Notes under the pieces: generated by a model | What the model was told of the DNA's origin: nothing | What the model saw: only the letters and a program-made list of their open reading frames with translations | Databases searched by the model: none | Shown: positions 24,492 through 50,034 of the stretch, in pieces | Position numbering within the stretch: the first letter of the stretch is position 1 | Layout of the letters: every line of letters starts with the position of its first letter | Source of the DNA: Sutcliffiella horikoshii | Lineage (GTDB): Bacteria; Bacillota; Bacilli; Bacillales; Bacillaceae_I | DNA: 64,000 bases | Direction of reading: 5' to 3' | Assembly: GCF_002157855.1 (NCBI RefSeq) | Contig: NZ_CP020880.1 | Span: 3,162,001 to 3,226,000, forward strand | Made by a program: the position numbers and the translations under genes

Positions 24492-27400
24492 TTAGTTTCT
24501 TAATTCCAGCCCTATTGATCGGAATAATTTTTCCAATGTTACCTTACCTGATTTTTCTTTAGGTTTCTTATCCCCTTTAACATCTGGGCCTACTTTAAAG
24601 AAATTCTTCTCGATGTATCGGAGGTCTTTCTCATCTACTTTACCATCTTGGTTGATATCTCCCTTGTTCACACCTACATTCTCTTTTCCATAGGAGAAAA
24701 CAGCAATAATCGCATCGTTAATATCAATCATCTTGTCACCATTTACGTCACCCGCATAGCCTGTTTCTATTTGGGCTATATGTCGTGTCCCTACTAACTC
24801 ACCATCAATATACGTCCCTACAGTCTGAGTCGTTTTACTCGTAAGGTGACCAGGTACTTGCACATAAATGTCATACTCTTGTTCTGTAGTTGGTAGTTTA
24901 TCTATTGTATAGTAAGCATTACTATGAATAATCGAGGCTTCAAAGGTTTTTCCATTGTTATTTTTCGCATAGACCTTTGCTCCAAGCTTAGAGTAGTCAA
25001 ATGTATTATCCCATTGACCATTTTCTCTCATGAATGCTTCTGGTTTCATGTTCCCATTTACGATGGAGTATTTTGCCAGAATTATAAATGACTTGTCTTT
25101 ATATACTCGAATCGTAGTAGGGTTAGAATCTGATGTTTTCTTGTATTTAAAGGCAATAGTATCAAAAGATAATGATAATCCATCTTGGTAAGTGTAGTTT
25201 TCATCGTTTATGACTTTGAATGTGACATCCAAAAACGGTAAGTTCTGATCGATAGCTAAATCATTTTCCTCAATCGAAGCTCCTACTTTGACAGTGCTAG
25301 CATTTAATGTTGGTTCATCTAATATAAAGTTAACTCCCTTTTCCTCTGTGTACTTTTCAAAGGCCTCATTGACTTTGACATTCAGAAATTCAAAGTGTTT
25401 ATTATAGAAAGGTACAGTGAATTCTCCAGAGGCCAGTTGCTTAACATTGTTCAAATTCAATGTCATCGTAATTCCGTCCCCAAGACGCACCTTTTCTTTA
25501 TCATAACTTGGAACCGCGTATTCCGTTCCTTCTTTTATGAACAGGTAACGATTTATGCCTTGCGGATATCCTACTGAAGCTGTTGCATTATCAAATACAA
25601 ATAAATTGGAGTCTAAATAAGACATTTGGTCAATTCTTTCCTTCGTTGCCGGAAATCTAAAGTTCCCTTCGCTATCCACCGCAAGGAAATGACGATTATA
25701 GTAGTTATACTCCCACCAAAGTGCACCATTCACAGATTGATCGATAGCCATTCCTTTTTGTTTGAGAGCATCGACTGTCGAATCATATACGTTTCCGTGA
25801 ATCCATACTGCAGGGCCTTCATATCCTTCTTCTATCGTGTACATCGAATCATCCACTTCATAAATACCAGGATCCATGGATACCTCTACCTCCGGAGGAG
25901 TATTATCAATCATCACCATTGCGCCTTTACTCCGGGGTATACCTTGCTCATCATACCCAATCATTTCGAACGTATAGTCACCTTCCGGCAGTTTCACCTC
26001 TTTATCAGAAATTGGCTGCGAAGGATCATTGGTGAATGGGTACACTTTTCCTTTAAAAATAGCATCTGCCCAATAATCAATACCTGTCAATAATTGGCTT
26101 GCATCAATGGTTGCGATAAATCCAATTGCTTCCCCTGATTTTCCATCTTTCACCAATACATCAATCGTCTCTAATGGAGTTGATAATTTTACGATTGCAT
26201 TGGTATATGGCGTATAATACGGATGTGCCTTCGAATCATTCGCAATCATCGGTCTTGTCAATACCATTTTCTCAAATCCTTTTTCTGTCACACGGATGGA
26301 AAAAGGTATTCGGTAATTTTCTTCTTCATGTTCCGAATTAATAAGGGTAACATATCCTTCATACCGCCCGAATTCCGCATCTTGTGAAACGCGTATAGTC
26401 GGCTCAACCTCTACATATTTTCCTGGTTCAATAGAAACTGTATTTGGTATTATTACTTCTACACCATTTTTGTCGGCATCCTGAATTTCTCCCTTAGCTG
26501 GTAAGAATTCAACATTTGTGTTAAATTCCTTTACATCTTTTTCATTGAAGTTCCGTATAACTATTTTCCTGCTGTCTTCAATAGGCCCATCTCCCTCTTT
26601 AAAGTGACTGCCGAAAGCAATTGAACCCGTTTCTTCATCAATTTCGATGAAATTCCCATCTTGTTCATGCATCGTTTTGTCCATAACTTTTATTAGGGTT
26701 TCCGTATGAACCGCCTCGTACGCATTAATTCGCCCTGAGCCGATTTCATTGACGGAGTATTCGCCATTCATTTCATCCGCCGTATTCATTAACGCCGCTT
26801 TCACATCAAAAGGTGTATATTCAGGATTGGCTTGCAAGATAAGCGCTGCCGTCCCAGCTACATGAGGAGCAGCCATGGATGTCCCTTGGAGACGAGCATA
26901 TGCGGTATCGTATTTTCCTCCGTCCTGTGGATCATTAATAAACTCAGGGATAGTAGAGAATATTGCCACTCCCGGTCCGACGACATCTGGTTTAATGTCA
27001 TCATTCCCGTTAGCAGGGCCTCTTGAACTAAATTCAGCTAAGCGGTCTCCTTCTGTCTTGACACTACCTAGTGATTCAAATTTAATTTCTGATTGAGGAA
27101 GCATCTGTTCCCCGTCAGCTTTTGTAATCCCGAAAGTAGGAATATAATTCATCCCCTCCCCAAGATAAGCTTCTATCTCCCCATCAACATGATTATAAAT
27201 AATTACAGCTTTAGCACCTGCAGCTCTAGCATTTTGAATTTTTTCATCAAATGTAATGTCGCCTCGTTGAATGATTGCTACCTTACCTGCGACATCTTTA
27301 TTGTCAAAGTCGGTTTTAGTTCCTATTCCAACATCGACAGTAGGCAAGGTTTTATTTTCGAGATCTTTTAAGTTATCTGTAAAGTTTTGCGCCAATAACT

Positions 27401-28664
27401 TCATGTCGGTGATGCTGGCTTCCCCTGCACTTGCGGTAATCGTTGGAATGGTTACCGAAACATCACTTGCCCCTACCGTAATTCCTAATGCTGCTGCTCC
27501 AGGAGATCCTAGAGTTTTTTCACCAGGTCCTGCGTTTCCAGACGCAACGACAGTCACAACGCCTGAGAGCATCGCATTATTAACCGCTATAGATGCCGGA
27601 TTTAGCGGATCATTAATACTTGATCCTAATGATAAGTTGATAACATCCATCTCTTCTCGAACCGCCCTGTCAATACCTGCAATGATTGCAGCAAGCGATC
27701 CTCTCCCATAAGAACCCAACACACGATACATATATAAATCGACATCAGGGGCTACTCCCTTTACTGCAGATGCCGAGCTGTTTTTCTTTTGTGCTGCGAT
27801 AGATCCAGCTACGTGTGTTCCATGTAATGTATAGTAACTGGAACCACCTTCAAATTCAGGCCTTCCGGAATCCTTCCAATCTTGATACGTTGCCTCCATT
27901 GGATCTGAATCATTATCAACAAAATCATATCCGCCTTTATAAGAATCTTTTAAATCTGGGTGATTATAGTCAATTCCTGTATCAATCACCCCCACTTTTA
28001 CTCCCGATCCGGAAATATTCTCTTGATGAAGTTTGTCCGCACCGATTTGTACAAGGCTATCATCTACCTTTGAGGAAGTTGATGATTTCATTTCACTTGC
28101 TTCTTCTGGTAGGTCAAGCTTCACTTCAGCATCTTTCCAAATACGTTTGACAACTCCTGTACTAAGTAACTCTTGCACCGCCGTTCCCGGTAATGTCATC
28201 GCTACCCCATTGAATGCCTCATGGTATTCTCTCGTAATCTTGGAGTCTTTCATCTTTTCTTCATTTGGTCTATTTAAGCTTTTGATAGTTTTCCATTCTT
28301 TTTGAAACGTATCGTGATCTTTTTTCACTTTACTTTTTGCTGAAGAAAGAGTCATTCTTTTTCCTTTTGCAGCATTCTTTGCCACTTCCACCTCTGCTGG
28401 GTCAGAATTAAATTCTACAATTACGTTGACTAATTCTGAATTCTCTTTGTTAATATCAGGTGAAACGACAAACCCTGGTGTAATCTCAAGTTCTTTCAGC
28501 GCTTTCCTTTGATGCTCAGTTAAATTAACTAACATCTGCTCCACACCATTTTTATCATTCTGAATATTATCTTCAGCAATAGCTTTATATGAAGTCCCCG
28601 TGGAAAATAACAAACTAGCAACTAAAGTTCCTGTAATTAAATGTTTTATTTTTCCAATGCTCAT
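24492..28664 (-). CDS. Secreted cohesin-dockerin subtilase 1
   Basis: A 1390-residue extracellular serine protease. Signal peptide 1-30; I9-like propeptide about 75-185; S8 domain with Asp228 (VIDTG), His281 (HGTHVAG), oxyanion Asn377 (ASGNAGP) and Ser596 (GTSMAAPHVAG), so the triad is complete. A PA domain is inserted at about 405-540, as in Vpr/lactocepin types. Beta-sandwich modules cover 660-1045, a cohesin-like module about 1050-1185 (RLGDGITMTLNLNNV), a carboxypeptidase-regulatory-like module about 1190-1300, and a dockerin 1304-1355 with two calcium loops (GDVNGDKMIDINDA, GDINQDGKVDEKDL). The tail ends KVTLEKLFRSIGLEL. An AGGAGG site precedes the ATG. This is the most divergent of the dockerins here. 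Confidence 0.92.
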   Translation of the reverse strand: MSIGKIKHLITGTLVASLLFSTGTSYKAIAEDNIQNDKNGVEQMLVNLTEHQRKALKELEITPGFVVSPDINKENSELVNVIVEFNSDPAEVEVAKNAAKGKRMTLSSAKSKVKKDHDTFQKEWKTIKSLNRPNEEKMKDSKITREYHEAFNGVAMTLPGTAVQELLSTGVVKRIWKDAEVKLDLPEEASEMKSSTSSKVDDSLVQIGADKLHQENISGSGVKVGVIDTGIDYNHPDLKDSYKGGYDFVDNDSDPMEATYQDWKDSGRPEFEGGSSYYTLHGTHVAGSIAAQKKNSSASAVKGVAPDVDLYMYRVLGSYGRGSLAAIIAGIDRAVREEMDVINLSLGSSINDPLNPASIAVNNAMLSGVVTVVASGNAGPGEKTLGSPGAAALGITVGASDVSVTIPTITASAGEASITDMKLLAQNFTDNLKDLENKTLPTVDVGIGTKTDFDNKDVAGKVAIIQRGDITFDEKIQNARAAGAKAVIIYNHVDGEIEAYLGEGMNYIPTFGITKADGEQMLPQSEIKFESLGSVKTEGDRLAEFSSRGPANGNDDIKPDVVGPGVAIFSTIPEFINDPQDGGKYDTAYARLQGTSMAAPHVAGTAALILQANPEYTPFDVKAALMNTADEMNGEYSVNEIGSGRINAYEAVHTETLIKVMDKTMHEQDGNFIEIDEETGSIAFGSHFKEGDGPIEDSRKIVIRNFNEKDVKEFNTNVEFLPAKGEIQDADKNGVEVIIPNTVSIEPGKYVEVEPTIRVSQDAEFGRYEGYVTLINSEHEEENYRIPFSIRVTEKGFEKMVLTRPMIANDSKAHPYYTPYTNAIVKLSTPLETIDVLVKDGKSGEAIGFIATIDASQLLTGIDYWADAIFKGKVYPFTNDPSQPISDKEVKLPEGDYTFEMIGYDEQGIPRSKGAMVMIDNTPPEVEVSMDPGIYEVDDSMYTIEEGYEGPAVWIHGNVYDSTVDALKQKGMAIDQSVNGALWWEYNYYNRHFLAVDSEGNFRFPATKERIDQMSYLDSNLFVFDNATASVGYPQGINRYLFIKEGTEYAVPSYDKEKVRLGDGITMTLNLNNVKQLASGEFTVPFYNKHFEFLNVKVNEAFEKYTEEKGVNFILDEPTLNASTVKVGASIEENDLAIDQNLPFLDVTFKVINDENYTYQDGLSLSFDTIAFKYKKTSDSNPTTIRVYKDKSFIILAKYSIVNGNMKPEAFMRENGQWDNTFDYSKLGAKVYAKNNNGKTFEASIIHSNAYYTIDKLPTTEQEYDIYVQVPGHLTSKTTQTVGTYIDGELVGTRHIAQIETGYAGDVNGDKMIDINDAIIAVFSYGKENVGVNKGDINQDGKVDEKDLRYIEKNFFKVGPDVKGDKKPKEKSGKVTLEKLFRSIGLELRN

Positions 28665-28892: not shown

Positions 28893-28902
28893 AGCCTAAT
28901 AA

Positions 28903-29345: not shown

Positions 29346-30059
29346 TCAATATTTAGCATCATCAACCATTTGTTTTGCTTGAATATTTAAATTGGAAGAG
29401 TAGGTGACGCCTTGGTATTCGTTCCCTGCTGTATGATCCAATTTAATTGCAAAGGAAAGGTCGATATATTGATTATCGTTTAATTGCCAGAACTCATGCT
29501 TCTCCCCTTCTTTTGACCCCTCGCCTAATACCATCTTCGCTTTTCCGTTACTGCTTTTTGCTGCTGGTTGAATTTCCTCTTCTTCTACAAATCCAACTAC
29601 CATTTCAACTCCAGGAGTAATCATTTTAGATAAAGTCTTGGCTTCGTTTGTTGGACCATTGAAGAGTTGATCCAAGTAGATTCTTGATTCTTCCAAGATG
29701 TCATCCGTCATTTCTTCTCCTTCAGAGAACTTATAGGCAATATATCCAATTTTATAAGCATCAAGAGAAACATCTGCATCTACAGACTGGTTATACGTTG
29801 CTTTTAAATATACATCCATATCCCCAGTGTTTTCGATTGTTAACCATTCACCATAAACTAATTGGGATGGGGCAAAGCCTGTTTGGTCCACTATCATGGT
29901 CTCCATGTCTTGCCCGTTATTAATTTCTAGTAAACCGTTTGTTATTTGTCCAGTAGCATTTGTCTCAGATGTAAACCAAGAATATGTACCGAAACTTGCT
30001 GACACCACCATCGTTCCTACCAACGCACTACCTAAAAACGCATTTTTCAATTTAAACAT
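29346..30059 (-). CDS. TasA/camelysin-family (CalY-like) matrix fibre protein
   Basis: A 237-residue secreted protein. The N-terminus (MFKLKNAFLGSALVGTMV...SWFTSE) is the SipW-dependent signal-peptide type. The mature part shows family features: ITNGLLEIN near the new N-terminus, WLTIENTGDMDVYLKATYN, and the C-terminal LDHTAGNEYQGVTYSSNLNIQAKQ. TasA/CalY proteins form extracellular fibres in biofilms and camelysin has been linked to protease activity. It follows a sipW gene by 18 bases, so the pair forms a processing and matrix operon. An AAGGGGGAT ribosome site precedes the ATG. It lies between protease genes 1 and 2. Confidence 0.85.
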   Translation of the reverse strand: MFKLKNAFLGSALVGTMVVSASFGTYSWFTSETNATGQITNGLLEINNGQDMETMIVDQTGFAPSQLVYGEWLTIENTGDMDVYLKATYNQSVDADVSLDAYKIGYIAYKFSEGEEMTDDILEESRIYLDQLFNGPTNEAKTLSKMITPGVEMVVGFVEEEEIQPAAKSSNGKAKMVLGEGSKEGEKHEFWQLNDNQYIDLSFAIKLDHTAGNEYQGVTYSSNLNIQAKQMVDDAKY

Positions 30060-30077: not shown

Positions 30078-30617
30078 TTATGATTGTTTAATCTCTTTCT
30101 TCCTCTTTGGCTTTATTTTTTCAAATGCCACTATACATACATAGCCTGTTAAAGGTAGAGCTATGAACAGTAAGAAACCAAGTGGGCCCTTTATAAATTG
30201 AGAAAAGTAGCCTAAGAATGGAATCAGAAATATTTTTTTTCCTACAATCTCATTAGCTGTTGTGACATTCTCGTCTGCTGAATTGTTGTTATCACCTTTC
30301 GTATAAAAATGTCTCCCCCCATCTGCTTCAACAATGGACGTGATTCTATGAGTGACCAGTAGTTGCTCTTCGTTGTAAAAGGAAATAATGTCACCCTTGC
30401 TAAGATCACCTGGATCAACCTCTCGAGTAATAATGACATCCCCAGCCTCAAAAACTGGTGCCATACTATTCGATAATACGGTGAGAGGCTTTATCCCCAA
30501 AACGCTTAGTGGTTTGTTACTGTTAAGGCTAGCGAAAATGGAAAATAGGATGACCATGATGAATAAGATGATTGTGATCGTTAAACCTTTTTTTACTAAT
30601 GTTGCAACCTTTTCCAT
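30078..30617 (-). CDS. sipW: Signal peptidase I, SipW (ER) type
   Basis: A 179-residue membrane protease with helices near residues 10-32 and 145-165. The catalytic serine is Ser51 in LSNSMAPVFEAGD. It has His90 in LLVTHRI in place of the bacterial lysine, plus the TKGDNN motif (Asp108), so it is the Ser-His ER-type enzyme. In B. subtilis SipW processes TasA and TapA. Here it precedes a TasA-like gene. A GAGGGTGAG ribosome site is present. One of the shared G5 motifs lies 135 bases upstream. Confidence 0.88.
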   Translation of the reverse strand: MEKVATLVKKGLTITIILFIMVILFSIFASLNSNKPLSVLGIKPLTVLSNSMAPVFEAGDVIITREVDPGDLSKGDIISFYNEEQLLVTHRITSIVEADGGRHFYTKGDNNNSADENVTTANEIVGKKIFLIPFLGYFSQFIKGPLGFLLFIALPLTGYVCIVAFEKIKPKRKKEIKQS

Positions 30618-31231: not shown

Positions 31232-32467
31232 CTAATTGTTAAGGAGTCTGCTAGCATACCTGTTAGCCTCCTCATGCTTGCATTGGTCTAGGTAGTATTG
31301 AAACATCGTTTTTTCATACGTATGCAACTGATGATAATTCCCGTTCTTGTTAAGCATAGGGATGATTTTTTCCTCAATAAATTGATAATAAAGCTCTTTT
31401 TCATCATCGTGCAGTAAACGAAGCATTTGAAAGAATGCTAAGCTACTATGATCTTTGATTTCCTTTGATATTTCCATGCCCGTTTGAATCAATTGCGTCA
31501 GCATACTATCCACTTTATTTTCTTTTATCTGTAAGCAACAGTAAATATATCCTATAAGGTTATTTAAGTAATTAGAAGATTTTTTATTACCTTTCAGTAG
31601 GTCCAATGTCTTTTTATAGTATATTCTTGCGTTTTCATTATCCCCAGTATAAGAATATTCATAAGCTAAATTACTTAGCAAGTTGGCTTTTTTTGAAGTA
31701 TCATTTATTATTTCGCATTGCGCAATCAATTGGTTATATCGATTGACAAGATTGTCAAAATTCCAAAGCTCGTTTCTTCCTTCATTAATTAATTTAATAG
31801 TTTCTGCATCAATGATTTTTTTGAAATTATTTGTCTTTTGAAAATATTCAAGTGAAAGTTCACTATAATAGTAAGCCTTTACTTTAAATTGTAGATTGTG
31901 ATAGGCAATTGCAATCTGATAATAGAATTCCAGGTTCTGATATTCTTTTTCATTAATTTTAAGAAGATATTCCAGTGCTTTTTTGAAGTTACCTTTTTGA
32001 AGTTCTGTTATTCCTAATAGATGGTGGAGTAAATGAGTTTCGTACGTATTTAAATCTTTGCGGACGTTATATATTTTATCAATAAGTGCTTTTGCATTCG
32101 TTATGTCCCCTCGCAATAGAAAATACCTTGCTTGCAGAAGAAAATACTTATTTTTCACTGATTGGATTAAAAACAGAGAATTCTTTTCAATTTGATTTTT
32201 GAGTCGTTCAATTTCATTGTTCTGTTGCAAGACCATACAATCGTGCCATTGATGCAGAAGTTTTTCAAATTTCTGAAGCGATTGTAATTCTTCTTCCATA
32301 TTAATTCCCAGCTTCTCACTTAATAGATTGGTGATCTCTGATGAAAACTGAGTCGTTCCCCGCTCAATTTTACTTACATGAGTTACAGAACAGACCCCTT
32401 TTCCCAGTTCTTCTTGTGTCAGGCCATTTTTTTCCCTATGGAATTTAATTAGGATTCCTAAACTCAA
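31232..32467 (-). CDS. NprR-like HTH-TPR quorum-sensing regulator, copy 2
   Basis: A 411-residue paralogue of the regulator at 22972. The HTH (residues 5-55) contains LTQEELGKGVCSVTHVSKIE, matching the NprR-type signature closely; the rest is TPR-like helices. Start is TTG at 32467 with a GGGAGTG site. It lies immediately downstream of protease gene 2 on the same strand, separated by a weak hairpin, and upstream of sipW, and has its own terminator. A 19-codon frame (31168-31227) lies between its stop and that terminator, but it has no ribosome site or signal-like sequence, so I do not call it a pheromone gene. Probable role: peptide-controlled regulation of the neighbouring extracellular protein genes. 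Confidence 0.75.
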   Translation of the reverse strand: MSLGILIKFHREKNGLTQEELGKGVCSVTHVSKIERGTTQFSSEITNLLSEKLGINMEEELQSLQKFEKLLHQWHDCMVLQQNNEIERLKNQIEKNSLFLIQSVKNKYFLLQARYFLLRGDITNAKALIDKIYNVRKDLNTYETHLLHHLLGITELQKGNFKKALEYLLKINEKEYQNLEFYYQIAIAYHNLQFKVKAYYYSELSLEYFQKTNNFKKIIDAETIKLINEGRNELWNFDNLVNRYNQLIAQCEIINDTSKKANLLSNLAYEYSYTGDNENARIYYKKTLDLLKGNKKSSNYLNNLIGYIYCCLQIKENKVDSMLTQLIQTGMEISKEIKDHSSLAFFQMLRLLHDDEKELYYQFIEEKIIPMLNKNGNYHQLHTYEKTMFQYYLDQCKHEEANRYASRLLNN

Positions 32468-32682: not shown

Positions 32683-35600
32683 TTAAGAAGTAATACCCAA
32701 CTCTTTTTTTATCTTTTGAATAGTCATGCCATTAGCTTCAGGTTGAGGGTCTGGCGTATCGAGTACAAAGTCGTTTTCAGATAAATAGTACTTTTCAAGA
32801 AGTTGAAAATCCAACTCATTTGTCGTACCATCGAAATTTATATCTGTACTTCTATTTTCAGTTCCCCAATGCTCATGAAGTAATAAGACATCATAAATAT
32901 CTACAACATTGTCTTTATTAATATCACCTGGCTTTGATACTGCAGTTCTATAGGAAATCCACTCTCCAATATCAGTCCCATTTACTTCATATCCAACTTC
33001 TAATGGGGTGTATGTCGTATAATGTCCTGGCACATCAATAATCATTGTATATTTCTTCACTGTTACAGGGAGATTATCAACATATAATCGACCATTAGCT
33101 TCTAATCTCGCTGGATAGGTTGTTCCTTCCATATCTTTTAAATGGATAGCTGCTCCCACTTTTGAATAATCTCTACTATAATCAAATCCACCATTTTCTG
33201 TTAACAATCCTTCAGCACCTAAAAATCCTGCATCCACCTGTGAGATTGTTGGATAAATTGGGTGAAGCCCGATTTCCGTCGTTATTCGTGGTCCATTATT
33301 TATCTGCATCGTAGTAGTACTAAATAGAGGTGCATAAACATATCTAAATTCTTCTGCATTTGTATCTGCGGTCATTTCAAATAAAACTACATCTCCGGAG
33401 ACGCCCTCTTCTGGGATAGATATGTCAATAGTTGTCCGTGTTGTACCTGGTTTAGTAGTTGTTTCTACTAATTCCGATCCTTCAGGCAATTGGTCTCCTA
33501 GCTGGAAATCAATAGATTCATCAAAGAACTTATCTTGATAAGATAGAGTCATAGAGAGGTCCTTGGCATTTGTAAGATTATGTGCATAGAACGTGTACTT
33601 GATTTTATCTCCCATTCGGTACGACTCTTTATCTGGCTTTGCAAATATAAACTGTGACCCTTCTTTTACATAATAAACGACTTTAGGTATAGCCGTATTA
33701 CCTGCATAATCAGCACCAAGGAATTGCAATTTTCGTATGGAGCTCGTTGCAACATTGAGTTCTTGTGAGAACTTACCATTTTCATCCACTTCAAGGCGAA
33801 AGTTTGGACCGGTCGGGCCATACCAAAGGTTGTTATCTGCTTGACTCAGTGAAATGCCTGCTTGTTGTGCTTCATTTAGTTCTTGATCGATCAAATTACC
33901 TGATAATGTTACGCTGTCTTGGCCTTCTGGCAGCACTACAATTGGGTTATCACCTTTAGGCATGGCATTTGTCTCGTCAAAGGTCACTTGTGGTTCACTA
34001 TTATCAAGGCTTATGGTCGACGTTCTAGCAAATTGCCTGCCATCCTTTGTCGTGCCAATCATCTTGACTTCATATATGCCATCTTCTGCTCTAATTCTAG
34101 TATAGCTAATTGGCTTCTTCTCGTGTCCGGTAAACGGAAAATAATAACCTGCAAATCCATCTTCAATGAAATAGTCATAGTCAATTGCTGCTCCCGTCGC
34201 GTTTACTCCTGTAATCCAGCCTAAGTCTTCTTTTGTATCGGGATCCACCAATATCCAGTCCAATGTTTCCATTGGGGAATTTAATCTAAAGTCTAGATCT
34301 GTAGCCTTCCTACTGTAAGGGTTTTTCACCCGGTTAGTAGAAATACTTGGTGTATATACTTCAAAGTGTCCGATCCCTTCTTCCACTACCTTTGCTCCAA
34401 AAGGAATACGGTAGATTTCATCTGTATCCTTTTGGTTTTTAATGACAATATATCCTTCGTAGGTTCCTTTTTGGGAGGATTTCGGAATCGTAAGAAAAGC
34501 ATTGAAGCGACCCTCTTTATTTTTTTTCACTTTAATCGACCTTGGAACATTCAGTCTTACACCGTTTTCCACTGCATCCAGGGATCCTGATGCTTCCGCT
34601 CCAACATTATATTCAACAGAGATATCATACTTTTTGTTTTTCTTACTATTATTTGTAATCGATAGATTCGTTGTTTTGGTGATATGTTCATCCCCCATTG
34701 GAATGAAACCGTAACTTAAGCCACCAGTTTGTTCTGGGATGATTGTTTCTTCTCCGTTTTCAATAAATGGCGTTTCATCCAGCACGGAAATGAACGTATC
34801 TGAGTGAAGTGCCTGCATTGGATCGACTCGCCCCGCTCCGACTTCAAATACACTATATTGATTTTGTAACGGATCTGCTGTATTCATGATGATAGATTTA
34901 ATATCACTTGGTGTGTAATCCGGATGTGCTTGTAATAATAACGCGGCAATCCCGGCAACTTGAGGAGAGGCCATGGATGTTCCTGATAATCGTTGGTAAG
35001 CAAATGAATAATCAGTAGAATCTTCTTTATTATGCATATATGCTGGGACGGTGGATAAAATATTCACGCCCGGTGCTGTTACATCTGGCTTGATATCATA
35101 TAATGTGCCTGATGGGCCCTTTGAACTGAAAGAAGCAAGCTCATCTCCGCTAATTTCCGCTTCACCCATTTCCCCAAGTGTGATAGTTGGTAAACCCTCT
35201 TTAAATAATTCTTTTACTGCTAAACCATCTTGATTTGATAGAGAAAAAGTAGGGATATTTTCGTTGTTTTCTCCTAGATAGTGTGGAATATGGCCGTCGT
35301 CCGGGACATTGTTATAAATTACAACACCAGCAGCGCCATTTTGTTTAGCGTAATTCATTTTATCAATAAGGGCATAGGTGCCTCTGGCAACGAATGCAAC
35401 CTTTCCATCTACATCTTTCCCGTTGTAATCAGCAGGTCCGCCTTCTCCAACTTCGACCATTTCGTAATTTTGTCCCTCGAGCTTCCTAAAATCATCCGTC
35501 CATTTATTGGTCATCAACTGCAGGGTACCGTTCGACTCCTTGCCATCTGCAGAAAACATACCATTATAAGTTGTGACAAAAGAGGGGGCAGAACTGGCTC

Positions 35601-41678: not shown

Positions 41679-44600
41679 TTAATTTAAATCAGCTAATATA
41701 TCATCTAGTGTTCTTCCGGACTCAATTTCTGTTGGTTCTCTGGAAGCTTCTCCAGTCGGATTTTTTAGTAAATAATTCTTTAGGATAAAGCTCATATCTT
41801 TGTGATCCACTACACCATCAAAATTGATATCTGCGTTTCTGTTGTTAGATCCCCATTGTTCTTCGAGATAGACAGCATCCAATATATCGATGACTCCATC
41901 CTTATTCACGTCTCCTGCAAGTGCCCCAAGAAAATTCAAGAATTTTTTCTCTCCTAAATGCCTAGTTTCCCTACCGATAGTAAAACTCTTTTTAACAGTA
42001 AAATGTCCTGGTATATCAAGAAGAAGGAACATTTTTTCCTGAGTGGAGGGTAATCCTAAAATACTAAATTGAGCATCCTCTTTAATTTCAGCAGGATATT
42101 CATTACCTTCGTTATCCAATACCCGAATATTCGCCCCTAATGCAAAATAGTCGATATGTGTAGAGAGTAAATTTCCAAACCCATTCCTTTCATATACGGC
42201 TTCTCCATTAATATTCCCCTGCAATTCAGAGTAGCTTGACCAAACTTTAACTGGTAGTGAAATAGAAGAAACGGATACCTTTGAGTTATCTGCTTTTGTT
42301 AATGATACCGAGTTTGCGGTAAGTGGAAAATAATCACTTACAAACGCATCATCCTTAATAGTTACATTAACGTTTAATAAGGTGGTTACGTCTTCTAGGT
42401 TAGATTCAGTCGTCGTTAATGTGATAATGGTGCCATTATCTGAATCAGTGGTTTCAAGGTGAACCTTTTCCTTCCATTCCTCCACAACAGAGATTTCTTT
42501 GATATCTATCACATCTTTATTGTATTGGTAGGAAAAGCTTAGCTTTTTCCACGGATCAAGATTATTTGTACGGAATGCAAAATCCATGCTATCACCTGAC
42601 AAGGCTTCTTTTTGCGTCGGAATACTAGCAACGTATGGTGCTCCTTTTCTTACAAGGTTGTAGTTTTTTTGTAAAGAAGCAATACCTGCTCGGTCTCTTC
42701 CTAGAATACTTAAGTTCATTACGTTTAAGTGACGCGGAAAAGAAGCATTGATAGCAAATTCACCATCATCACTTAATGGAGTATTTTGCCAAAAACTGCC
42801 ACTCTTATATCTTACCGAGTTATTTCCTTGATTTACATCAATACCTGTTGTCTTAGCTGATTCAATTTGATTATCATGAATGCTGCCTTCCAATGAATAA
42901 GTGGTATTTTCAGGCTCCACTTCAATAATTTCTGTTTCTACATCCATTTCTAACGTTGGCATTTCTTTATCAATGATAAAGGGCATATTCACCAAAAGTT
43001 CTTCCCCATCATCTTTGATAAAAACAAATTTTAAATAATACGACCCAGGAGTTGCTTTAGTTGTTTCATGAGTAATCGGTGAATCGGGATTATTGGTAAA
43101 AGGGTAATATTCCCCATTGGAGAACGTGTAAAATGAATACGGCTTTTCCACTTGTAGAAATGCTCCGTCCATGCTTCCTACAAAACCTAATTCATCCCCA
43201 GTATTAGCGTCCGTTAAATATACATCGATATTTCTCATGTGTGAATAGAGGGAAAACTTGGTATTCATGGCAGTCGGACCACCACCATAGTTTTCTCTAA
43301 TGGTTGATAAGGTGTCATTCGCCGTTAAGTACTCTATACCATCTTTCGAGAGTCTAAATGCGAAAGGAACTTGGTAGCTATCTGTTTCATCTTCCACGTT
43401 TGTGAAGGTAATAGTACCTTCATAAACTCCTTCTTCCGCCGTATTTGGTATAGTTAAGAAAATATTATTTGTTACTTTTTTATTAGCTGCAATACTAACT
43501 GTTTTTTTTGTATTCACTTTTACTCCATTTTTTGCTCCATCCTTCGAACCGCGAATTCCTACATGGAATTGTGAATCAATAGTAAATGTCACCTTCTTAT
43601 CTAGATGATTAGTAATGGTAATACTTGCATTCTCTCGATGATGAGAATCATTGGTGATAAGTGTTCCCAACGCTAAAGCACCTGTCACGGATGGAGCCCA
43701 CTTTTTCTCACCATCTATAAATGTCTCGGTTTTACCCATTACTTTAATGGTCACAGAAGCCGTTTCTGCCTTCCAAGCATTAACTCTACCAGCCCCGATA
43801 TCAAAAACGCTGTTCGCACCATTAATTGGCTCCGCTGAATTCATTAAAAGTGCTTTGATATCTCCAGGAGTTAGAGAAGGGTATGCTTCTAATAGCAAAG
43901 CAGCAATTCCTGCGACATATGGAGTAGCCATTGATGTGCCAGATAATTTCGCATATGCCGAGGAATAATCTTTTTCTTTCCCACCATAGTAATGTGGTAC
44001 AGTGGATAATATATTCCCACCTGGCGCAACAATTTCTGGTTTTATATCATACGTAAGTCTTGCTGGCCCACGTGAACTGAAAGAAGACAGCGTATCATCC
44101 TGAACAACCACAGTTGGAACTAATTTAGTAAAAGTAAAAGTCATTTCATCTATTGCTAGAATTTGTTTAATTTTATCTCCTTGCACCCCTCGCAGATGAT
44201 AGGTAGGTACAAAGTTTTCATTTTCGCGATATACAACCCCATTATAATCCCCATACCCTGGCGTATAACTGAACACTACTGCTGCACCATGTTCTTTAGC
44301 AATCGCAATTTTCTCATCTGTACGAATAGAACCCGTTTTTATCAAGACTATTTTTCCATTTACATCTATATTTTCATAATCGCTTTGCATTCCATTCCCA
44401 GCATCTATTACCTCGAAAGTTTTTCCTTCTAATGATCTCGGTGAATTCTCCATTCCAGCAGTTGCATATCGAACTTCGCTCGACTCTTTGCCTTCCTCAT
44501 ATAAGAATTCTCCTTCAAAATCTGGATATGCAACCATCGTGTTAGTAGACCCAACGGTAATATTCAAAGCAGAAGCAGCAGGAGATCCGATCGAATATAA

Positions 44601-45707
44601 CGAAGAACCAGTATTCCCTGCAGCGGAAACGGTTGTAACGCCTGCAAGTACGGCATTATTAAGGGCCACGGAAAAGGGGGATAGCGGATCATTTATGTTA
44701 TTCCCTAACGATAAATTGATAATATCCATTTCTGCTTGAACAGAATATTCAATTCCTGCTAATATGTCTTCCATCGTCCCTGTTCCATATGGCCCTAAAA
44801 CACGATAAGCATACAATTCCACCCCCGGTGCTACACCTAATACGGCTAAAGGCGATTCATTTTTATTCTGACCTGCTATGATTCCGGCAACATGTGTACC
44901 ATGGGAAGTATAAAAGGCGTTTGAGCCGAGAGTTTCTGGGAGGCCCGATTCAAGCCAATCTGAATAGGTAGCCTCCATTGGATCATCATCTTCATCAACG
45001 AAGTCATACCCACCATGATATACATCCTGTAAATCTGGGTGATGATAATCTATACCTGTATCTAATACAGCTACTTTTACACCTTTGCCTGTTAGCCCTT
45101 TTTCATGTAATTTGTTTACCCCTGTCAATTCAAGTGGATGCTTCCCGTCATATGCTTGTCGTGTTACATCCTCCTTGTTTTCGGGTAATTCTAATTGAAT
45201 TGTTTCGTTTTCCCAGATGTTTTTTATCACTTTCGATTTTAATAGTTTTGGAATATCAGAGGTTGGTAAATGAACAGTCACCCCATTAAACGCTTCTTTA
45301 TAGCTTTTTGTAACTTCTCCGTCTATATTTAATTCTAATAGATCTTCCGCAAAAATTTGGTGATCTTTCTCCACTAACTGTTGCCCTTCCTCAATGGAGG
45401 CTGTTTCCCCCTCTGCCTCTTTCATAGCTACAGCTGTTTTTGGAGTGAAATGGTTGAATTCCACAATAATCGAGATTTCTTCATCACTGGAATAATCAAT
45501 GTCACCAGGAAGGTTCACTTCTGAAGTTACCGATGACGTTAAGTCGTTAATAGCCCTCCTTTTTTCTGCTGATAGTAATGTCATCGCATCCTCTATCCCT
45601 ATATTCCCCTCTGCTACAACTGTGTTAGGATTTGAAATGGCTGGTGTAATACTACTTATGAATAATGCACCAACCAACATCAACCCTACGATTTTTTTCC
45701 TTTTCAA
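41679..45707 (-). CDS. Secreted cohesin-dockerin subtilase 4
   Basis: 1342 residues from the TTG at 45707, which follows GGGGGAGAGG and opens a clean signal peptide (MKRKKIVGLMLVGALFISS). An ATG at 45749 is in frame but weaker. S8 domain: Asp216 in VAVLDTG, His269, oxyanion Asn365 (AAGNTGSS) and Ser592 (LSGTSMATPYVAG). A PA insert, beta modules, a cohesin-like module (ALSGDSMDFAFRTNNLDPW), a carboxypeptidase-regulatory-like module and a dockerin at 1264-1314 (GDVNKDGVIDILDA, ADINFDGVVDHKD) follow. The tail is GRTLDDILADLN. Its S8 and PA parts are less like those of the other four proteins. A shared G5 motif lies about 75 bases upstream. Confidence 0.91.
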   Translation of the reverse strand: MKRKKIVGLMLVGALFISSITPAISNPNTVVAEGNIGIEDAMTLLSAEKRRAINDLTSSVTSEVNLPGDIDYSSDEEISIIVEFNHFTPKTAVAMKEAEGETASIEEGQQLVEKDHQIFAEDLLELNIDGEVTKSYKEAFNGVTVHLPTSDIPKLLKSKVIKNIWENETIQLELPENKEDVTRQAYDGKHPLELTGVNKLHEKGLTGKGVKVAVLDTGIDYHHPDLQDVYHGGYDFVDEDDDPMEATYSDWLESGLPETLGSNAFYTSHGTHVAGIIAGQNKNESPLAVLGVAPGVELYAYRVLGPYGTGTMEDILAGIEYSVQAEMDIINLSLGNNINDPLSPFSVALNNAVLAGVTTVSAAGNTGSSLYSIGSPAASALNITVGSTNTMVAYPDFEGEFLYEEGKESSEVRYATAGMENSPRSLEGKTFEVIDAGNGMQSDYENIDVNGKIVLIKTGSIRTDEKIAIAKEHGAAVVFSYTPGYGDYNGVVYRENENFVPTYHLRGVQGDKIKQILAIDEMTFTFTKLVPTVVVQDDTLSSFSSRGPARLTYDIKPEIVAPGGNILSTVPHYYGGKEKDYSSAYAKLSGTSMATPYVAGIAALLLEAYPSLTPGDIKALLMNSAEPINGANSVFDIGAGRVNAWKAETASVTIKVMGKTETFIDGEKKWAPSVTGALALGTLITNDSHHRENASITITNHLDKKVTFTIDSQFHVGIRGSKDGAKNGVKVNTKKTVSIAANKKVTNNIFLTIPNTAEEGVYEGTITFTNVEDETDSYQVPFAFRLSKDGIEYLTANDTLSTIRENYGGGPTAMNTKFSLYSHMRNIDVYLTDANTGDELGFVGSMDGAFLQVEKPYSFYTFSNGEYYPFTNNPDSPITHETTKATPGSYYLKFVFIKDDGEELLVNMPFIIDKEMPTLEMDVETEIIEVEPENTTYSLEGSIHDNQIESAKTTGIDVNQGNNSVRYKSGSFWQNTPLSDDGEFAINASFPRHLNVMNLSILGRDRAGIASLQKNYNLVRKGAPYVASIPTQKEALSGDSMDFAFRTNNLDPWKKLSFSYQYNKDVIDIKEISVVEEWKEKVHLETTDSDNGTIITLTTTESNLEDVTTLLNVNVTIKDDAFVSDYFPLTANSVSLTKADNSKVSVSSISLPVKVWSSYSELQGNINGEAVYERNGFGNLLSTHIDYFALGANIRVLDNEGNEYPAEIKEDAQFSILGLPSTQEKMFLLLDIPGHFTVKKSFTIGRETRHLGEKKFLNFLGALAGDVNKDGVIDILDAVYLEEQWGSNNRNADINFDGVVDHKDMSFILKNYLLKNPTGEASREPTEIESGRTLDDILADLN

Positions 45708-45782
45708 CTGCCTCTCCCCCAACTTGATAGTACTGATTACCTCAGTCATTACTAGTAATTCGTGAAAATGTGAGGGTTCCCT

Positions 45783-45905: not shown

Positions 45906-45921
45906 TTTAATTCGTACTTCC

Positions 45922-48900
45922 TTATTGGATGTTCAGCTCGTTCAAGATTCTTTCTAAGGTTTGTCCTTTATAATTCTTCTTAGGTTTTGGCGCATTTTGG
46001 ATGGTCGGATTTTGCATGAAGTAGTTGTTTACAACAAAAGCCATATCCTTTTCATCTACAATGCCGTCATAGTTAATATCGGCTTCGCGTTTATCAGTAC
46101 CCCAATGCGATTGGATGTACACTGCGTCCATGATATCGATGACATCATCTTTATTAACATCCCCACCGATTGCAGTTTTATAAGGCAGATATTTTCTTTG
46201 GCTGGTTACTTTACCATCATCATGGAATCCAACATTAAATGTATTGTGCACAGTAAAATGCCCAGGTACATTTAGCTCGAATTGGAATTCTTCATCCGTT
46301 AAAGGCAAATATGGAATCTGGTAATTTGTTGACGATGAAGAAGAAAATCTTCCTTGATATACCTTGCCGTCCTTACCAGTTGCATGTACTTTGACACCGA
46401 CCTTCTTGTAATCATTTGAGTTTGGAGTTCCACTCAAATTCATAAATGCTTCTGCAGCTACACCTCCGTACACCATTGAGTACGTTGCCTTGACAAAAAT
46501 CATCGGATTTGCACTCAATGCTTCCTTCATTTCATTATTCGTATCCGTGTAAGATACAGTCATATACCTGGCATAAAATATAGGGGCTTGCGAATATCTG
46601 TCGTCCTTCATCTTAAACTCTATATCCGCTAGGGAAAGGTCATTAGACAATGCCGGCACTCCATCCTTCGTTGATACTGTAACTGTCAATTTGTTGTAAT
46701 CCCCAAATTCTTTTACATCCTCTACTTTTATATCAACTGCATCACTAACGCTGCTGTGCGTCGTTACAGTCGGTTCAGCCAAGGCATTATTATACTGCAA
46801 CGTATACACAGCTTCTTTTACATCGGTTACATTGTCTAGGGTTAAAGTCGTTTGTACAGACTCTCCCATATTTGCAAATATTTTTTCAGTCTGCATATTT
46901 GCGTGCGGCTCTCCTTCACGAATAACGTAGATCATTCTACTATTATTCCATGTTTGATTGGACGCAGCATCTCTCCCGTAAAACCAAAGTTGCATAGGTC
47001 TTGTTTGATTGATAGGAATATCAACAGAGAAAGTGCCATCTTCATTAACAGGAATCTGTACCGGTCGGCCTCCAAGCTGATCATGATAAAACATTTCATT
47101 ACTTCCTTGAGAAACATCAAATCCTGCGGCCTTCATATCTTGCGTTTCTTTATCGAAAATAGAACCCGTGACGTTTATTGTAGTTTCTTTAGGAGTGTAT
47201 TCGTATACATCCTCTTTTATATTAAGATCAAGTTCCGGTGCGATACTCTCCATATAAATGGTAGATTCTTTAGAGAAAGTTTTTCCTGCATCATTTGTCC
47301 CTACGAATTTCAATTTGTAAGATCCTTGCTTGGCTATTTTCGGGTTATAAGCAATTGGCTTGTCCGCATCACCAGTAAACGGATAGTAATACCCTTCAAA
47401 TACATGCTTAATCCCAAGATCCACTTTCTCATTCATCAACATACCATCATATGTTCCGATAAATCCTAATTCTTCGTTTGTTTTTCCATCCACTAAAAAC
47501 ACATCGAGTGTACGCATATGGGATGTTAAATTCAAATATACATCTGTGTATCGTCTTGCCGCATTATAATCTTTCGTAGTTGTAATTGCTTTATTAAGTA
47601 TTTCTACAAACTCGATTCCTTCCTTTGTCGTGCGGATAGCAAACGGGACTTGATATGTCTCTTCCGGATTTACTTGGTTTGTATAGGTAATATAGCCTTC
47701 ATACGTTCCTAACGCTGCCGTTTTGGGAATCGTAATGAAGACATTCGTTTTCTTTTTCCCCTTTCCATTCACTTTTACTTTCTTATCTGCGGAAATTTGA
47801 ACACCGTTAGCATCTGCGTCGTTTGATGTTCGATAATCGTTTTGGAATCGTCCTTCCAATACTTGAAACTCTATATTTACATCAAATGTTTTTGCTTGTT
47901 TACTATTGTTGTAGATAGTAAGAGAACGTTGATCTGTCACATTGGTTCCATCCGGTGCAAAGGTTCCAAAGCTGATTGCCCCTGTTTTATCTTGTACCAT
48001 CTTATAATTACCTTTTTTGTCTAATTTCCCTTGTGTTTCATCGCTTACTTCGATTCGGCTTTGAGAATGAATAGCTTCGTACGGATCCACTACACCTGCT
48101 CCCACTTCATAAACGCTATATTCCCCATTTAGTGGATCTGCCGTGTTCATCAATACTTGCTTCACTTGTTCAGGAGTGAAATCTGGGTTCGCTTGTAATA
48201 ATAATGCAGCTACCCCAGCCACATTCGGGCTTGCCATCGAAGTTCCTGATAGTCTTTTATAGGCATATTGATAGTTTCCGATTTGGTCTTCCCCATGCAT
48301 ATACGAAGGTACTGTAGAGAAAACAGATACGCCTGGTGCTATTACTTCCGGCTTGATATCATATGTCGTACGAGCCGGTCCACGTGAACTAAAGGATGCA
48401 AGCTTGTTTCCTTCCGTCACTACTTCCCCAATTTCATTAAAGGAGAATTCCGAAGTGCCATTTACGTTTTGTTTCAACAGCTTTCCTTGTTCATAGGATA
48501 GGGAAAATGTCGGAATCATTCCGTACCCTTCTCCTAGATACGAGGGAATGAATCCTTCTCCTTGAATGTTATTAGCCATTAATACTGCTTTTGCTCCATG
48601 TTTTTGCGCTTCTTTAATCTTGGCATCCAATGTGAGAATTCCTCTATCGACTAGGACAATCTTTCCCTTCACATCTTTGTTGTTAAAATCAGAAGCAGCC
48701 CCATATCCAGCGTATATGATTGGAAGACTCTGACCCTTTAGCTCTTCTACTTTATCATCTAGACTTTTTGCCAAAAGTTTTAGGTCTGCTGTTACATCTT
48801 CCAATGTACCTTTAGATGTTTCAATCATTTCTGGTGTATCGCTTGCTCCAACTGTAATAGCTAAGGCAGCAGTACCTGGGGACCCAAGTGTGTACATACT

Positions 48901-50034
48901 GTCTCCGCTGTTACCAGCAGAAACAACTGACGTCACTCCCGCCATCACTGCATTGTTCAATGCCATACTAGTAACATAGAGAGGGTCATTGTAGGATCGG
49001 CCCAGAGAAAGGTTGATTACATCCATTCCATCTAGCACAGCCCGGTCAATTGCTGCCAGTATAGCTTCCGTTGAACCAGAACCATATTGCCCTAATACAC
49101 GGTACGCATAAATATCCGCTTCCGGTGCTACACCAGTCACGGCGTAATCTGCATTATTTTTACCTTGTCCTGCAATAATACCCGCTACATGGGTTCCATG
49201 TTGCGTATAATAAGTGGAACCTGTCAAAGGATTAATTTCTGCGTACCCCGATTTTTTCCAATCATCATATGTTGTCTCCATCGGGTCATTATCGTTATCG
49301 ACAAAATCATAGCCGCCTTTATAAGCATCCTTTAAATCAGGATGATTATAATCAATTCCTGTATCGATAACTCCTACCTTAATCCCTTTACCTGTTAATC
49401 CTTCGTGGTGCAATTGATCCACACCAGGGAATGTCAATCTTTTGGTTTCTGTCGTTTTATCAGATGATTTTTGTTCCACAGGAGGCTCTACTTGCACTGT
49501 TTCATTACTCCAAACTGCTTTTACTACCTTGGACTGCATTAATGCCTCCACTTTATTAGAAGGTAATTCCATAGATACCCCGTTAAGAGAGTGCTTATAC
49601 GATCTTTTAATTTTATAGAAATCTTGCTTCTTTTTTACATCTTCTTGATAAATGCTCTGTAAGTCTTTCTTGAACGTCTCATGAGCAGCATCGGCCTTTT
49701 GCTCTGCCTCAGCTAACGACACTTTTTTCCCTTTTACGGCCTCTTCTACTACTGCTGTCTTAGCAGGCTTGTCCTTGAATTCAACGATAACGGAAACTTT
49801 ATCATCGCTCTCCAAATTCACTTCAGGCGCTAATTGCAAACCAGACTGATCGCTGATTTGTAATTTATTCAACGCTTCACGTTGGGCTGGTGTGAGATTT
49901 GTTAAAACCTGGTTAATGCTTGATGGTGTTTCGGCATGAACGTTTAATGGATTGTTAACCGGCGCAAATGCACTGAACATAAGGCCAGTTGCCAATGCCA
50001 AGGTTGTGGCCTTCTTGAAAACTTTCTTTTTCAT
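45922..50034 (-). CDS. Secreted cohesin-dockerin subtilase 5
   Basis: A 1370-residue protein with a classical signal peptide (MKKKVFKKATTLALATGLMF to about residue 35). The I9-like propeptide (about 80-180) is followed by an S8 domain with Asp224, His279, Asn375 and Ser599 (LSGTSMASPNVAG). The PA insert includes FNNKDVKGKIVLVDRG. Beta modules, a cohesin-like module (ANMGESVQTTLTLDNVTDV), a carboxypeptidase-regulatory-like module and a dockerin at 1290-1340 (GDVNKDDVIDIMDA, ADINYDGIVDEKD) follow, with the tail GQTLERILNELNIQ. The dockerin loops are fully canonical. No G5 motif was found upstream, unlike genes 2-4. Confidence 0.92.
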   Translation of the reverse strand: MKKKVFKKATTLALATGLMFSAFAPVNNPLNVHAETPSSINQVLTNLTPAQREALNKLQISDQSGLQLAPEVNLESDDKVSVIVEFKDKPAKTAVVEEAVKGKKVSLAEAEQKADAAHETFKKDLQSIYQEDVKKKQDFYKIKRSYKHSLNGVSMELPSNKVEALMQSKVVKAVWSNETVQVEPPVEQKSSDKTTETKRLTFPGVDQLHHEGLTGKGIKVGVIDTGIDYNHPDLKDAYKGGYDFVDNDNDPMETTYDDWKKSGYAEINPLTGSTYYTQHGTHVAGIIAGQGKNNADYAVTGVAPEADIYAYRVLGQYGSGSTEAILAAIDRAVLDGMDVINLSLGRSYNDPLYVTSMALNNAVMAGVTSVVSAGNSGDSMYTLGSPGTAALAITVGASDTPEMIETSKGTLEDVTADLKLLAKSLDDKVEELKGQSLPIIYAGYGAASDFNNKDVKGKIVLVDRGILTLDAKIKEAQKHGAKAVLMANNIQGEGFIPSYLGEGYGMIPTFSLSYEQGKLLKQNVNGTSEFSFNEIGEVVTEGNKLASFSSRGPARTTYDIKPEVIAPGVSVFSTVPSYMHGEDQIGNYQYAYKRLSGTSMASPNVAGVAALLLQANPDFTPEQVKQVLMNTADPLNGEYSVYEVGAGVVDPYEAIHSQSRIEVSDETQGKLDKKGNYKMVQDKTGAISFGTFAPDGTNVTDQRSLTIYNNSKQAKTFDVNIEFQVLEGRFQNDYRTSNDADANGVQISADKKVKVNGKGKKKTNVFITIPKTAALGTYEGYITYTNQVNPEETYQVPFAIRTTKEGIEFVEILNKAITTTKDYNAARRYTDVYLNLTSHMRTLDVFLVDGKTNEELGFIGTYDGMLMNEKVDLGIKHVFEGYYYPFTGDADKPIAYNPKIAKQGSYKLKFVGTNDAGKTFSKESTIYMESIAPELDLNIKEDVYEYTPKETTINVTGSIFDKETQDMKAAGFDVSQGSNEMFYHDQLGGRPVQIPVNEDGTFSVDIPINQTRPMQLWFYGRDAASNQTWNNSRMIYVIREGEPHANMQTEKIFANMGESVQTTLTLDNVTDVKEAVYTLQYNNALAEPTVTTHSSVSDAVDIKVEDVKEFGDYNKLTVTVSTKDGVPALSNDLSLADIEFKMKDDRYSQAPIFYARYMTVSYTDTNNEMKEALSANPMIFVKATYSMVYGGVAAEAFMNLSGTPNSNDYKKVGVKVHATGKDGKVYQGRFSSSSSTNYQIPYLPLTDEEFQFELNVPGHFTVHNTFNVGFHDDGKVTSQRKYLPYKTAIGGDVNKDDVIDIMDAVYIQSHWGTDKREADINYDGIVDEKDMAFVVNNYFMQNPTIQNAPKPKKNYKGQTLERILNELNIQ

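Follow-up and report, generated by a model that had tools for sequence, protein, structure and literature searches.

A predicted scaffoldin-type C-terminus on five clustered subtilases of Sutcliffiella horikoshii and the possibility of protease assembly without a scaffoldin

The protease cluster and its C-terminal modules

The window analysed here is a stretch of 64,000 nucleotides from Sutcliffiella horikoshii (GCF_002157855.1, NZ_CP020880.1, positions 3,162,001-3,226,000, forward strand). Its subject is a cluster of five large paralogous open reading frames (ORFs) for S8 proteases at 24492-50034 of the window, each of which ends in a cohesin-like module, a carboxypeptidase-regulatory-like module, a dockerin and a tail, together making up the last approximately 330 residues. 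The encoded proteins have 1390, 1373, 1378, 1356 and 1370 amino acids (aa), and P0002-P0005 align to P0001 with 33-39% identity. A first-pass annotation of this DNA had placed five paralogous S8 proteases at exactly these coordinates, which ORFs, Pfam and alignment confirm; of the size range that it gave, 1342-1390 residues, the upper end stands but the lower end is 1356, the figure of 1342 presumably reflecting another start codon.

Protease 1 (P0001, 1390 aa): 24492..28664, minus strand; signal/I9 propeptide, S8 with PA insert, beta modules, cohesin-X-dockerin-tail (Coh-X-Doc-tail)
Protease 2 (P0002, 1373 aa): 32683..36804, minus strand
Protease 3 (P0003, 1378 aa): 37196..41332, plus strand; subject of both structure models
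Protease 4 (P0004, 1356 aa): 41679..45749, minus strand
Protease 5 (P0005, 1370 aa): 45922..50034, minus strand

Unlike the other four, protease 3 (37196-41332) is on the plus strand, and it converges on protease 4. The active-site Asp, His and Ser and the oxyanion Asn are invariant in the alignment of all five, as expected from the complete triad first noted for each, and Peptidase_S8, PA and Inhibitor_I9 are above the Pfam cut-off in every protein. By sequence, the top match of P0003 is the Vpr fibril structure 8jmw_A (E 3.1e-100, aa 105-798). An AlphaFold model of the mature protein (residues 215-1378; predicted local distance difference test, pLDDT, 90.4; predicted template modelling score, pTM, 0.73) also has 8jmw_A as its first match in Foldseek (E 4.1e-46, template modelling (TM) score 0.76 by target), followed by streptococcal SpyCEP-type and C5a peptidases. 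The five window proteases are probably secreted, propeptide-bearing, Vpr-related subtilases. They share with Vpr of Bacillus (8JMW) an I9-S8-PA-Fn3-like enzyme, but the chain in 8JMW has 803 aa and no Coh-X-Doc, whereas the window proteases have about 1370 aa. Two Vpr-like proteases coexist with the cluster in the genome (C1:4036606-4038132 and 3733800-3735461, loci L014 and L015, in frames of 776 and 817 aa).

The modules of the C-terminal unit were placed as follows.

P0001 cohesin-like module, aa 1053-1196: 25077..25508, minus strand; alignment to P0003, Pfam cohesin
P0001 X-like module, aa 1199-1301: 24762..25070, minus strand; alignment to P0003
P0001 dockerin, aa 1304-1360: 24585..24755, minus strand; two intact calcium loops, Pfam and alignment
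P0002 cohesin-like module, aa 1056-1184: 33253..33639, minus strand; alignment to P0003
P0002 X-like module: 32944..33246, minus strand; alignment to P0003
P0002 dockerin: 32770..32937, minus strand; Pfam and alignment
P0003 cohesin module, aa 1060-1190: 40373..40765, plus strand; Pfam 25.7 bits, AlphaFold and Foldseek
P0003 X module, aa 1193-1294: 40772..41077, plus strand; AlphaFold, profile, Foldseek
P0003 dockerin, aa 1296-1349: 41081..41242, plus strand; Pfam, profile, Foldseek
P0004 cohesin-like module: 42240..42623, minus strand; alignment to P0003
P0004 X-like module: 41925..42233, minus strand; alignment to P0003
P0004 dockerin: 41757..41918, minus strand; Pfam and alignment
P0005 cohesin-like module: 46489..46893, minus strand; alignment to P0003
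P0005 X-like module: 46174..46482, minus strand; alignment to P0003
P0005 dockerin: 46006..46167, minus strand; Pfam and alignment

The presence of a dockerin on every protease, claimed from the outset, was borne out. Dockerin_1 is listed by Pfam in all five, above the cut-off in four and below it in P0001 (19.9 against 22.9 bits), and the D-x-N-x-D...D calcium-loop pattern is kept in all ten dockerin loops, that is, in both loops of each protein. Cohesin is listed in only one of the five when proteins are searched singly, P0003, where it is above the cut-off at 25.7 bits; in the whole-genome scan the P0001 cohesin gave 23.8 bits, or 25 with frame neighbours, thereby reaching the cut-off. The C-terminal regions of the other four are 27-30% identical to that of P0003; structure modelling and the fold search of the cohesin concern P0003 alone, the others being assigned by alignment to it. 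The modules are real, and it is the cohesin that general libraries overlook in most of the five proteins.

The AlphaFold model of P0003 residues 1048-1378, built with 92 family rows, has a mean pLDDT of 95.9 and a pTM of 0.86, and its C-terminal helix (319-325) is confident as well. When this unit was compared with the PDB by Foldseek, ranks one to four were taken by the cohesin-X-dockerin II of CipA (three chains of 4fl4 and 3kcp_A; E 2.2e-17 to 4.0e-16, 321-340 columns). The first PDB match of the family profile is again 3kcp_A (E 2.8e-9), as a single stretch over positions 21-314 of 338 that covers cohesin, X and dockerin. Because this match runs through all three, the module first labelled 'carboxypeptidase-like' represents X, the first half of an X-dockerin dyad; the module order originally given stands, with that label made more precise. 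CarboxypepD_reg was found by Pfam in 10 of the 92 family rows (E <= 0.01), Cohesin in 31 and Dockerin_1 in all 92, the last count following from the choice of rows by dockerin patterns. The cohesin-like fold foreseen for the segment at about 1050-1185 was thus recovered in P0003 by AlphaFold and Foldseek, and a chance resemblance of this segment to cohesin is rejected, as profile, fold and order agree.

Judged from the model, the unit is a scaffoldin-type C-terminus with the same module order as CipA. The CipA (ScaA) protein of C. thermocellum is non-catalytic and carries a cohesin of type I alongside a dockerin of type II. It has in common with the window proteases the module order and folds of the whole C-terminal Coh-X-DocII; the differences are that the window unit joins a protease and that the window cohesin looks type II-like. 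A profile of the cohesin alone has type II cohesins as its best PDB matches (3l8q_A at 2.9e-7, then 3fnk, 3ghp, 4u3s and 5g5d_A), partial matches that cover mostly profile positions 11-60, and among single cohesins the best fold matches are non-cellulosomal. By both profile and Foldseek the X-dockerin matches the type II X-dockerins 5k39_B, 2b59_B and 5g5d_B, among other dockerins. Position 10 of dockerin repeat 1 is Ile or Val in 94% (weighted), with Leu in the CipA DocII, and repeat 2, unlike this hydrophobic position, has mostly Ala/Glu and Lys. Since the cohesin is nearest to type II and the X-dockerin resembles type II, each chain may carry the two halves of a potentially matching type II pair.

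Every module is under purifying selection, averaged over the module. The ratio of non-synonymous to synonymous divergence between orthologues (dN/dS; mean dN over mean dS in ten orthologue pairs, single short comparisons scattering to 0.98) is 0.085 for the S8 part, 0.15 for the beta modules, 0.18 for the cohesin, 0.15 for X, 0.11 for the dockerin and 0.17 for the tail. Within the family, conservation rises from the cohesin (1.27 bits) through X (1.57) and the last 15 residues of the tail (2.11) to the dockerin (2.66).

The C-terminal tail as a possible dockerin clasp

Beyond the dockerin each protein ends in a short helix, which falls into three types.

P0001 C-terminal clasp helix (putative), F-type, aa 1372-1386: 24507..24551, minus strand; alignment, family analysis
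P0002 C-terminal clasp helix (putative), K-type: 32692..32736, minus strand; alignment
P0003 C-terminal clasp helix (putative), K-type: 41276..41320, plus strand; AlphaFold, coupling analysis
P0004 C-terminal clasp helix (putative), L-type: 41682..41723, minus strand; alignment
P0005 C-terminal clasp helix (putative), L-type: 45928..45972, minus strand; alignment

Mean-field coupling analysis was applied to 155 sequences (effective number 100); its two top couplings join tail site 332 with sites 299 and 303 of dockerin helix 3 (10.5 and 10.2 standard deviations, SD), and dockerin-tail pairs number 27 in the top 300 where 8.7 are expected. All 48 rows with Lys332 have Glu303, as against 26 of the remaining 98 rows that have both sites. 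On a tree built without these sites, parsimony gives 15 switches between Lys and non-Lys at site 332; in 13 of them site 303 gains or loses Glu on that very branch, and for the remaining two Glu was there beforehand. In the window P0002 and P0003 have a Lys tail, P0004 and P0005 a Leu tail and P0001 a Phe tail, and both Lys tails pair with a Glu in their own dockerin, which fits a contact within the chain.

On the strength of this covariation the tail is best read as a clasp that would sit on dockerin helix 3 and leave helix 1 free. Some of the linkage between these sites, only about 30 residues apart, could also come from segmental exchange among paralogues. A role for the tail as a sorting or anchoring signal was also considered, and the clasp is more likely because the tail covaries with dockerin helix 3. 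An intramolecular clasp has been described for the double dockerin dDoc_0689 of a C. thermocellum S8 protease, which binds cellulosomal scaffoldins (PMC12484212). That protein resembles those of the window in having S8, dockerin and clasp; it differs in its two dockerins, and the available part of the report mentions no cohesin.

Possible assembly without a scaffoldin and the alternatives to it

Cohesin-dockerin assembly is familiar mainly from plant-fibre degraders with scaffoldins. In the S. horikoshii genome, Pfam (E <= 0.01) finds cohesin in two places and dockerin in six, all within the cluster except for one dockerin in a broken sixth copy. This remnant of a sixth Coh-X-Doc protease (C1:2785602-2786620; L005, L016) retains pieces of cohesin, X and dockerin, its protease part not being seen. 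There is no dockerin-bearing glycoside hydrolase among the six host dockerin rows at this threshold, all of which lie in the five proteases or the remnant. Among 15 congeners (E <= 0.001), all 12 Pfam cohesin rows and all 24 dockerin rows lie inside frames of 1356-1416 aa; by Pfam, seven of these genomes have both modules, one (G004) has dockerin only and seven have neither. The family cohesin profile, run on 10 genomes, gave 62 rows, every one in a frame of the family's sizes or in the remnant, where the family is called by frame size and the rows of the window proteases match by construction. No separate multi-cohesin scaffoldin was found by Pfam in the host or the 15 congeners or by the family cohesin profile in the 10 genomes, although a very divergent one could escape such a search and the genome G187, described below, was outside the Pfam cohesin search. 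The scaffold-free arrangement proposed in the first-pass annotation agrees with what Pfam and the family profile found in the host genome. Pfam gave no cellulose-binding module in the five proteins, the genome not having been searched for CBM3. A cellulosome proper can be rejected, since neither a scaffoldin nor a dockerin-bearing hydrolase was found in these searches.

Family rows occur in 9 of 16 genomes of the genus, with one to seven in each (two of the host's seven being the remnant). Two genomes, G007 and G014, have counterparts of the five-gene set, with 89-94% identity over the C-terminal 825-850 residues compared.

The reading that we favour, tentatively and at somewhat less than an even chance, is that the proteases join one another, X-dockerin to cohesin, and so give scaffold-free assemblies in the matrix. 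The free helix 1 face of the X-dockerin would bind the cohesin of a second protease with calcium, the C-terminal helix would pack on dockerin helix 3 and so close the unit, and the outcome would be homo- and heterotypic protease assemblies. Their place of action would be the extracellular matrix, given the neighbouring genes for a TasA/CalY-like protein and a SipW-like peptidase, and their control would lie with HTH-type regulators. In favour of this reading count the match of the whole unit to CipA, the type II affinity of cohesin and X-dockerin, the calcium ligands kept in all ten loops, the failure of the searches to find a scaffoldin, the purifying selection on each module and the Vpr fibril as nearest solved enzyme. 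A fuller version is distinctly more doubtful. In it the type II pair on each chain would allow scaffold-free copolymerisation outside the cell into calcium-dependent protease fibres, their composition set by the paralogues expressed; the fibres would be built beside, and perhaps into, TasA-like fibres under peptide-sensing control, and would amount to a protein-degrading analogue of the cellulosome among Bacillus-like bacteria, with more than 20 subunits in one genus.

If enzymes that are the only detected carriers of both partners do assemble, a scaffold would be dispensable, and with one to seven genes per carrying genome the genus could provide a genetically simple test system for self-assembly. 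Extracellular protease function would then be linked to biofilm matrix fibres, and the modules could serve as self-assembling parts. Should binding fail, the family would still represent a scaffoldin C-terminus turned protease stalk.

Several observations weigh against assembly of this kind. The cohesin is the least conserved module, at 1.27 bits compared with 2.66 for the dockerin, and cohesin-dockerin couplings are not enriched (29 in the top 300 against 37.9 expected). The latter test is weak because most contacts within the cohesin were not recovered, cohesin-cohesin couplings being barely enriched themselves (48 against 42.5 expected). One cohesin-dockerin pair, 28-301, is the sixth-ranked coupling at 6.8 SD; it decides nothing, as the two sites rarely change on the same branch (7 shared branches, for 29 and 35 changes on 290 branches). 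At the positions that correspond by eye to Asn37 and Asp39, contact residues in type I, there is no conservation. The angle between modules is also unlike that of CipA: over the whole unit the TM score by query is 0.34-0.37 with a root-mean-square deviation of about 12-14, so that the modules agree and their relative angles do not, and single modules fit better (cohesins 2xdh at TM 0.74 and 2vo8 at 0.77 by target, X-dockerin 5g5d_B at 0.73). Finally, G004 and G015 have a single copy each, and self-binding alone would be possible there. Packing of cohesin on dockerin within one chain is not supported, the couplings between them not being enriched as a class.

It is also conceivable, though unlikely, that the X-dockerin ties each protease to an unrecognised partner, such as a divergent surface or matrix protein, perhaps TasA/CalY-like, or the wall, while the cohesin has some other ligand and no chain of proteases is formed. 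The sipW- and tasA-like genes that adjoin the proteases in the window and in 9 of the 76 loci listed would suit such an anchor, as would the giant variants described below, in which other modules replace the tail (CWB2 in L228, Ig-like or repeat domains in L222) and the second dockerin loop is broken in four of six frames, as if another anchor could take over. The dockerin-bearing S8 protease of C. thermocellum, moreover, is reported to prefer cell-bound cohesin (PMC12484212). Against anchoring, no other cohesin was found in 10 genomes with the family profile, and the family has kept a cohesin for which an anchor has no need. We also know of no precedent for the binding of a dockerin to TasA, which counts against it.

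A purely structural role is rather improbable as well. Coh-X-Doc would then be an inherited, calcium-stabilised stalk that binds nothing in trans, with the clasp and X merely keeping the dockerin folded. The covariation of the tail with dockerin helix 3 suggests intramolecular packing, X and dockerin are coupled to one another (sites 164 and 304, 9.2 SD), and the cohesin is poorly conserved. However, the calcium ligands are kept in a dockerin that is the most conserved module, position 10 of its first repeat is hydrophobic, and one dockerin reported to have a clasp does bind (PMC12484212). Very unlikely is a polymerisation of the Vpr type, in which the catalytic and adjoining beta modules form fibrils that Coh/Doc only decorates or cross-links: Vpr reportedly makes active extracellular fibrils via its own assembly domains and processes TapA and PhrC (PMC10657474), and 8jmw_A is the best sequence and fold match to P0003, but P0003 has just 34-35% identity to the two Vpr-like proteins of its own genome.

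What is new here is a protease family of Bacillus-related genera whose enzymes alone were found to carry these modules, and with it the putative clasp, the scale of the family and its matrix-type and regulator neighbours. Non-cellulosomal use of cohesin or dockerin modules is represented by the C. perfringens glycosidases and the A. fulgidus cohesin, and in C. perfringens the cohesin and the dockerin are mostly on separate proteins. Their cohesins (2vo8, 2jh2, 2w1n, 2xdh) are among the Foldseek matches to the P0003 unit; the enzymes are other than those of the window. A cohesin and a dockerin on one enzyme are already known from ScaO/ScaP and from Paenibacillus guangzhouensis, as far as the available parts of the two reports go (PMC6780208, PMC11557425). 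ScaP2 of C. alkalicellulosi is described there as Peptidase-Coh2-Peptidase-XDoc2-GalOx-Rhs and ScaO2 as Peptidase-Coh2-Doc1; other peptidase scaffoldins are ScaO of A. cellulolyticus and the S8-like WP_128706311.1 of A. mesophilus, with Coh1-Doc1. Binding by the X-dockerin of ScaP2 was seen with every representative type II cohesin assayed (PMC6780208). These proteins thus resemble ours in uniting peptidase, cohesin and dockerin, ScaP2 even having Coh2 with a type II X-dockerin, but, compared by description only, they belong to cellulosome genomes with many scaffoldins and several carry oxidase or Rhs modules, whereas proteases of the window type are the only cohesin and dockerin carriers found in the genomes searched. 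P. guangzhouensis is reported to have 28 monovalent dockerin-cohesin adaptors, many with an N-terminal glycoside hydrolase, nearly all its dockerins sitting in cohesin proteins, and five SLH-anchoring scaffoldins (PMC11557425). The likeness lies in the single cohesin and single dockerin, in many cases joined to an enzyme, and the difference in the glycoside hydrolases and the SLH-anchoring scaffoldins. The available part of a 2008 survey lists a Sub_N-Subt-PA-Dockerin architecture and does not contain the word 'cohesin' (PMC2605481), and no earlier description of an S8 family with both modules was found in a literature search that left most subscription journals outside.

Neighbouring genes and distribution of the family

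Five further genes of the window lie among or beside the proteases.

HTH-TPR regulator, 411 aa: 31232..32467, minus strand; adjoins protease 2; HTH_3 above and TPR_12 below the Pfam cut-off
SipW-like signal peptidase I, 179 aa: 30078..30617, minus strand; TIGR02228 112.1 bits, above cut-off
Divergent TasA/CalY (camelysin)-like protein, 237 aa: 29346..30059, minus strand; Peptidase_M73 17.9 bits, below the Pfam cut-off of 22.5
HTH regulator of the same family, 409 aa: 22972..24201, plus strand; convergent with protease 1; Pfam HTH_3
Second-type HTH regulator, 420 aa: 21493..22755, minus strand; relatives adjoin Coh-X-Doc proteases elsewhere

Against the SipW model itself the 30078-30617 protein scores 109.6 bits, under the cut-off of 190. 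The TasA/CalY-like label of 29346-30059 rests on a weak match, the SipW-like neighbour and the N-terminus, and the protein has no PDB match at E <= 1. Set against RRNPP quorum-sensing regulators, which join HTH to TPR and have a pheromone precursor gene next to them, the window regulators show HTH above the cut-off in all three, and TPR is listed for 31232-32467 alone. The 22972-24201 regulator, which has no PDB match at E <= 0.01, shows 38% identity to the locus of the 31232-32467 protein; its family in the host comprises four close members, itself included, plus a distant one, two of the close members being in the window and two at another host locus, L249 (C1:708000-725000). Inspection by eye revealed no convincing secreted small ORF beside the HTH regulators that could be a pheromone precursor. 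L249 encodes two HTH-TPR regulators, a camelysin (244 bits), a SipW-like peptidase and a thermolysin-type (M4) protease, as well as a giant S8 protease without Coh/Doc and, by eye, a transposase-like ORF pair at 1080-2632.

A scan of named genomes gave at least 76 Coh-X-Doc protease loci, mostly in Bacillus and related genera, several per genome in places and often with cut flanks; Gottfriedia, Rossellomorea, Fictibacillus, Peribacillus, Sporosarcina and others are among the matches listed. A relative of the HTH regulators is present in 41 of the 76 loci listed, a SipW-like gene in 12, a TasA-like gene in 9 and both of the latter in 9, with the order protease-sipW-tasA on one strand in seven of these nine. 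Given the second kit at L249 and these counts, the association of protease, regulator, sipW and tasA recurs both inside this genome and across genera. The chief matrix protein of B. subtilis is TasA (PMC9674648), and in B. cereus TasA and CalY assemble into filaments (PMC13082335).

A dockerin match was found in 44 of 299 genomes of the order and 21 of 112 genera, some of these matches being outside the protease family. In one genus (g24), six of the eight genomes listed with matches have at least 20. G187, a genome in one contig, accounts for 33 rows: 21 in frames of standard length (1367-1456 aa), three in frames of 1762-1853 aa, seven in six giant frames of 2674-2864 aa and two in fragments. 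By Pfam, three long variants are S8 proteases whose chains run on into repeat or Ig-like domains. Where the tail would be, three CWB2 cell wall binding domains are found in L228 and Ig-like and repeat domains in L222; both (L228 4642-13386, L222 2896-11007) are S8 giants of 2700-2900 aa with a Coh-X-dockerin-like unit in mid-chain, followed by Shr-like and List_Bact repeats. The first dockerin repeat is kept in all six giant frames inspected (the L223 stretch used starts inside it), and the second loop is interrupted or ligand-less in L222, L223, L224 and L228 and intact in L221 and L225. A separate, scaffoldin-like system occurs in the same order in genome G258, where a protein of 1760 aa that combines two cohesin stretches with SLH repeats (L229, 12432-17711) lies near dockerin frames of 364-689 aa.

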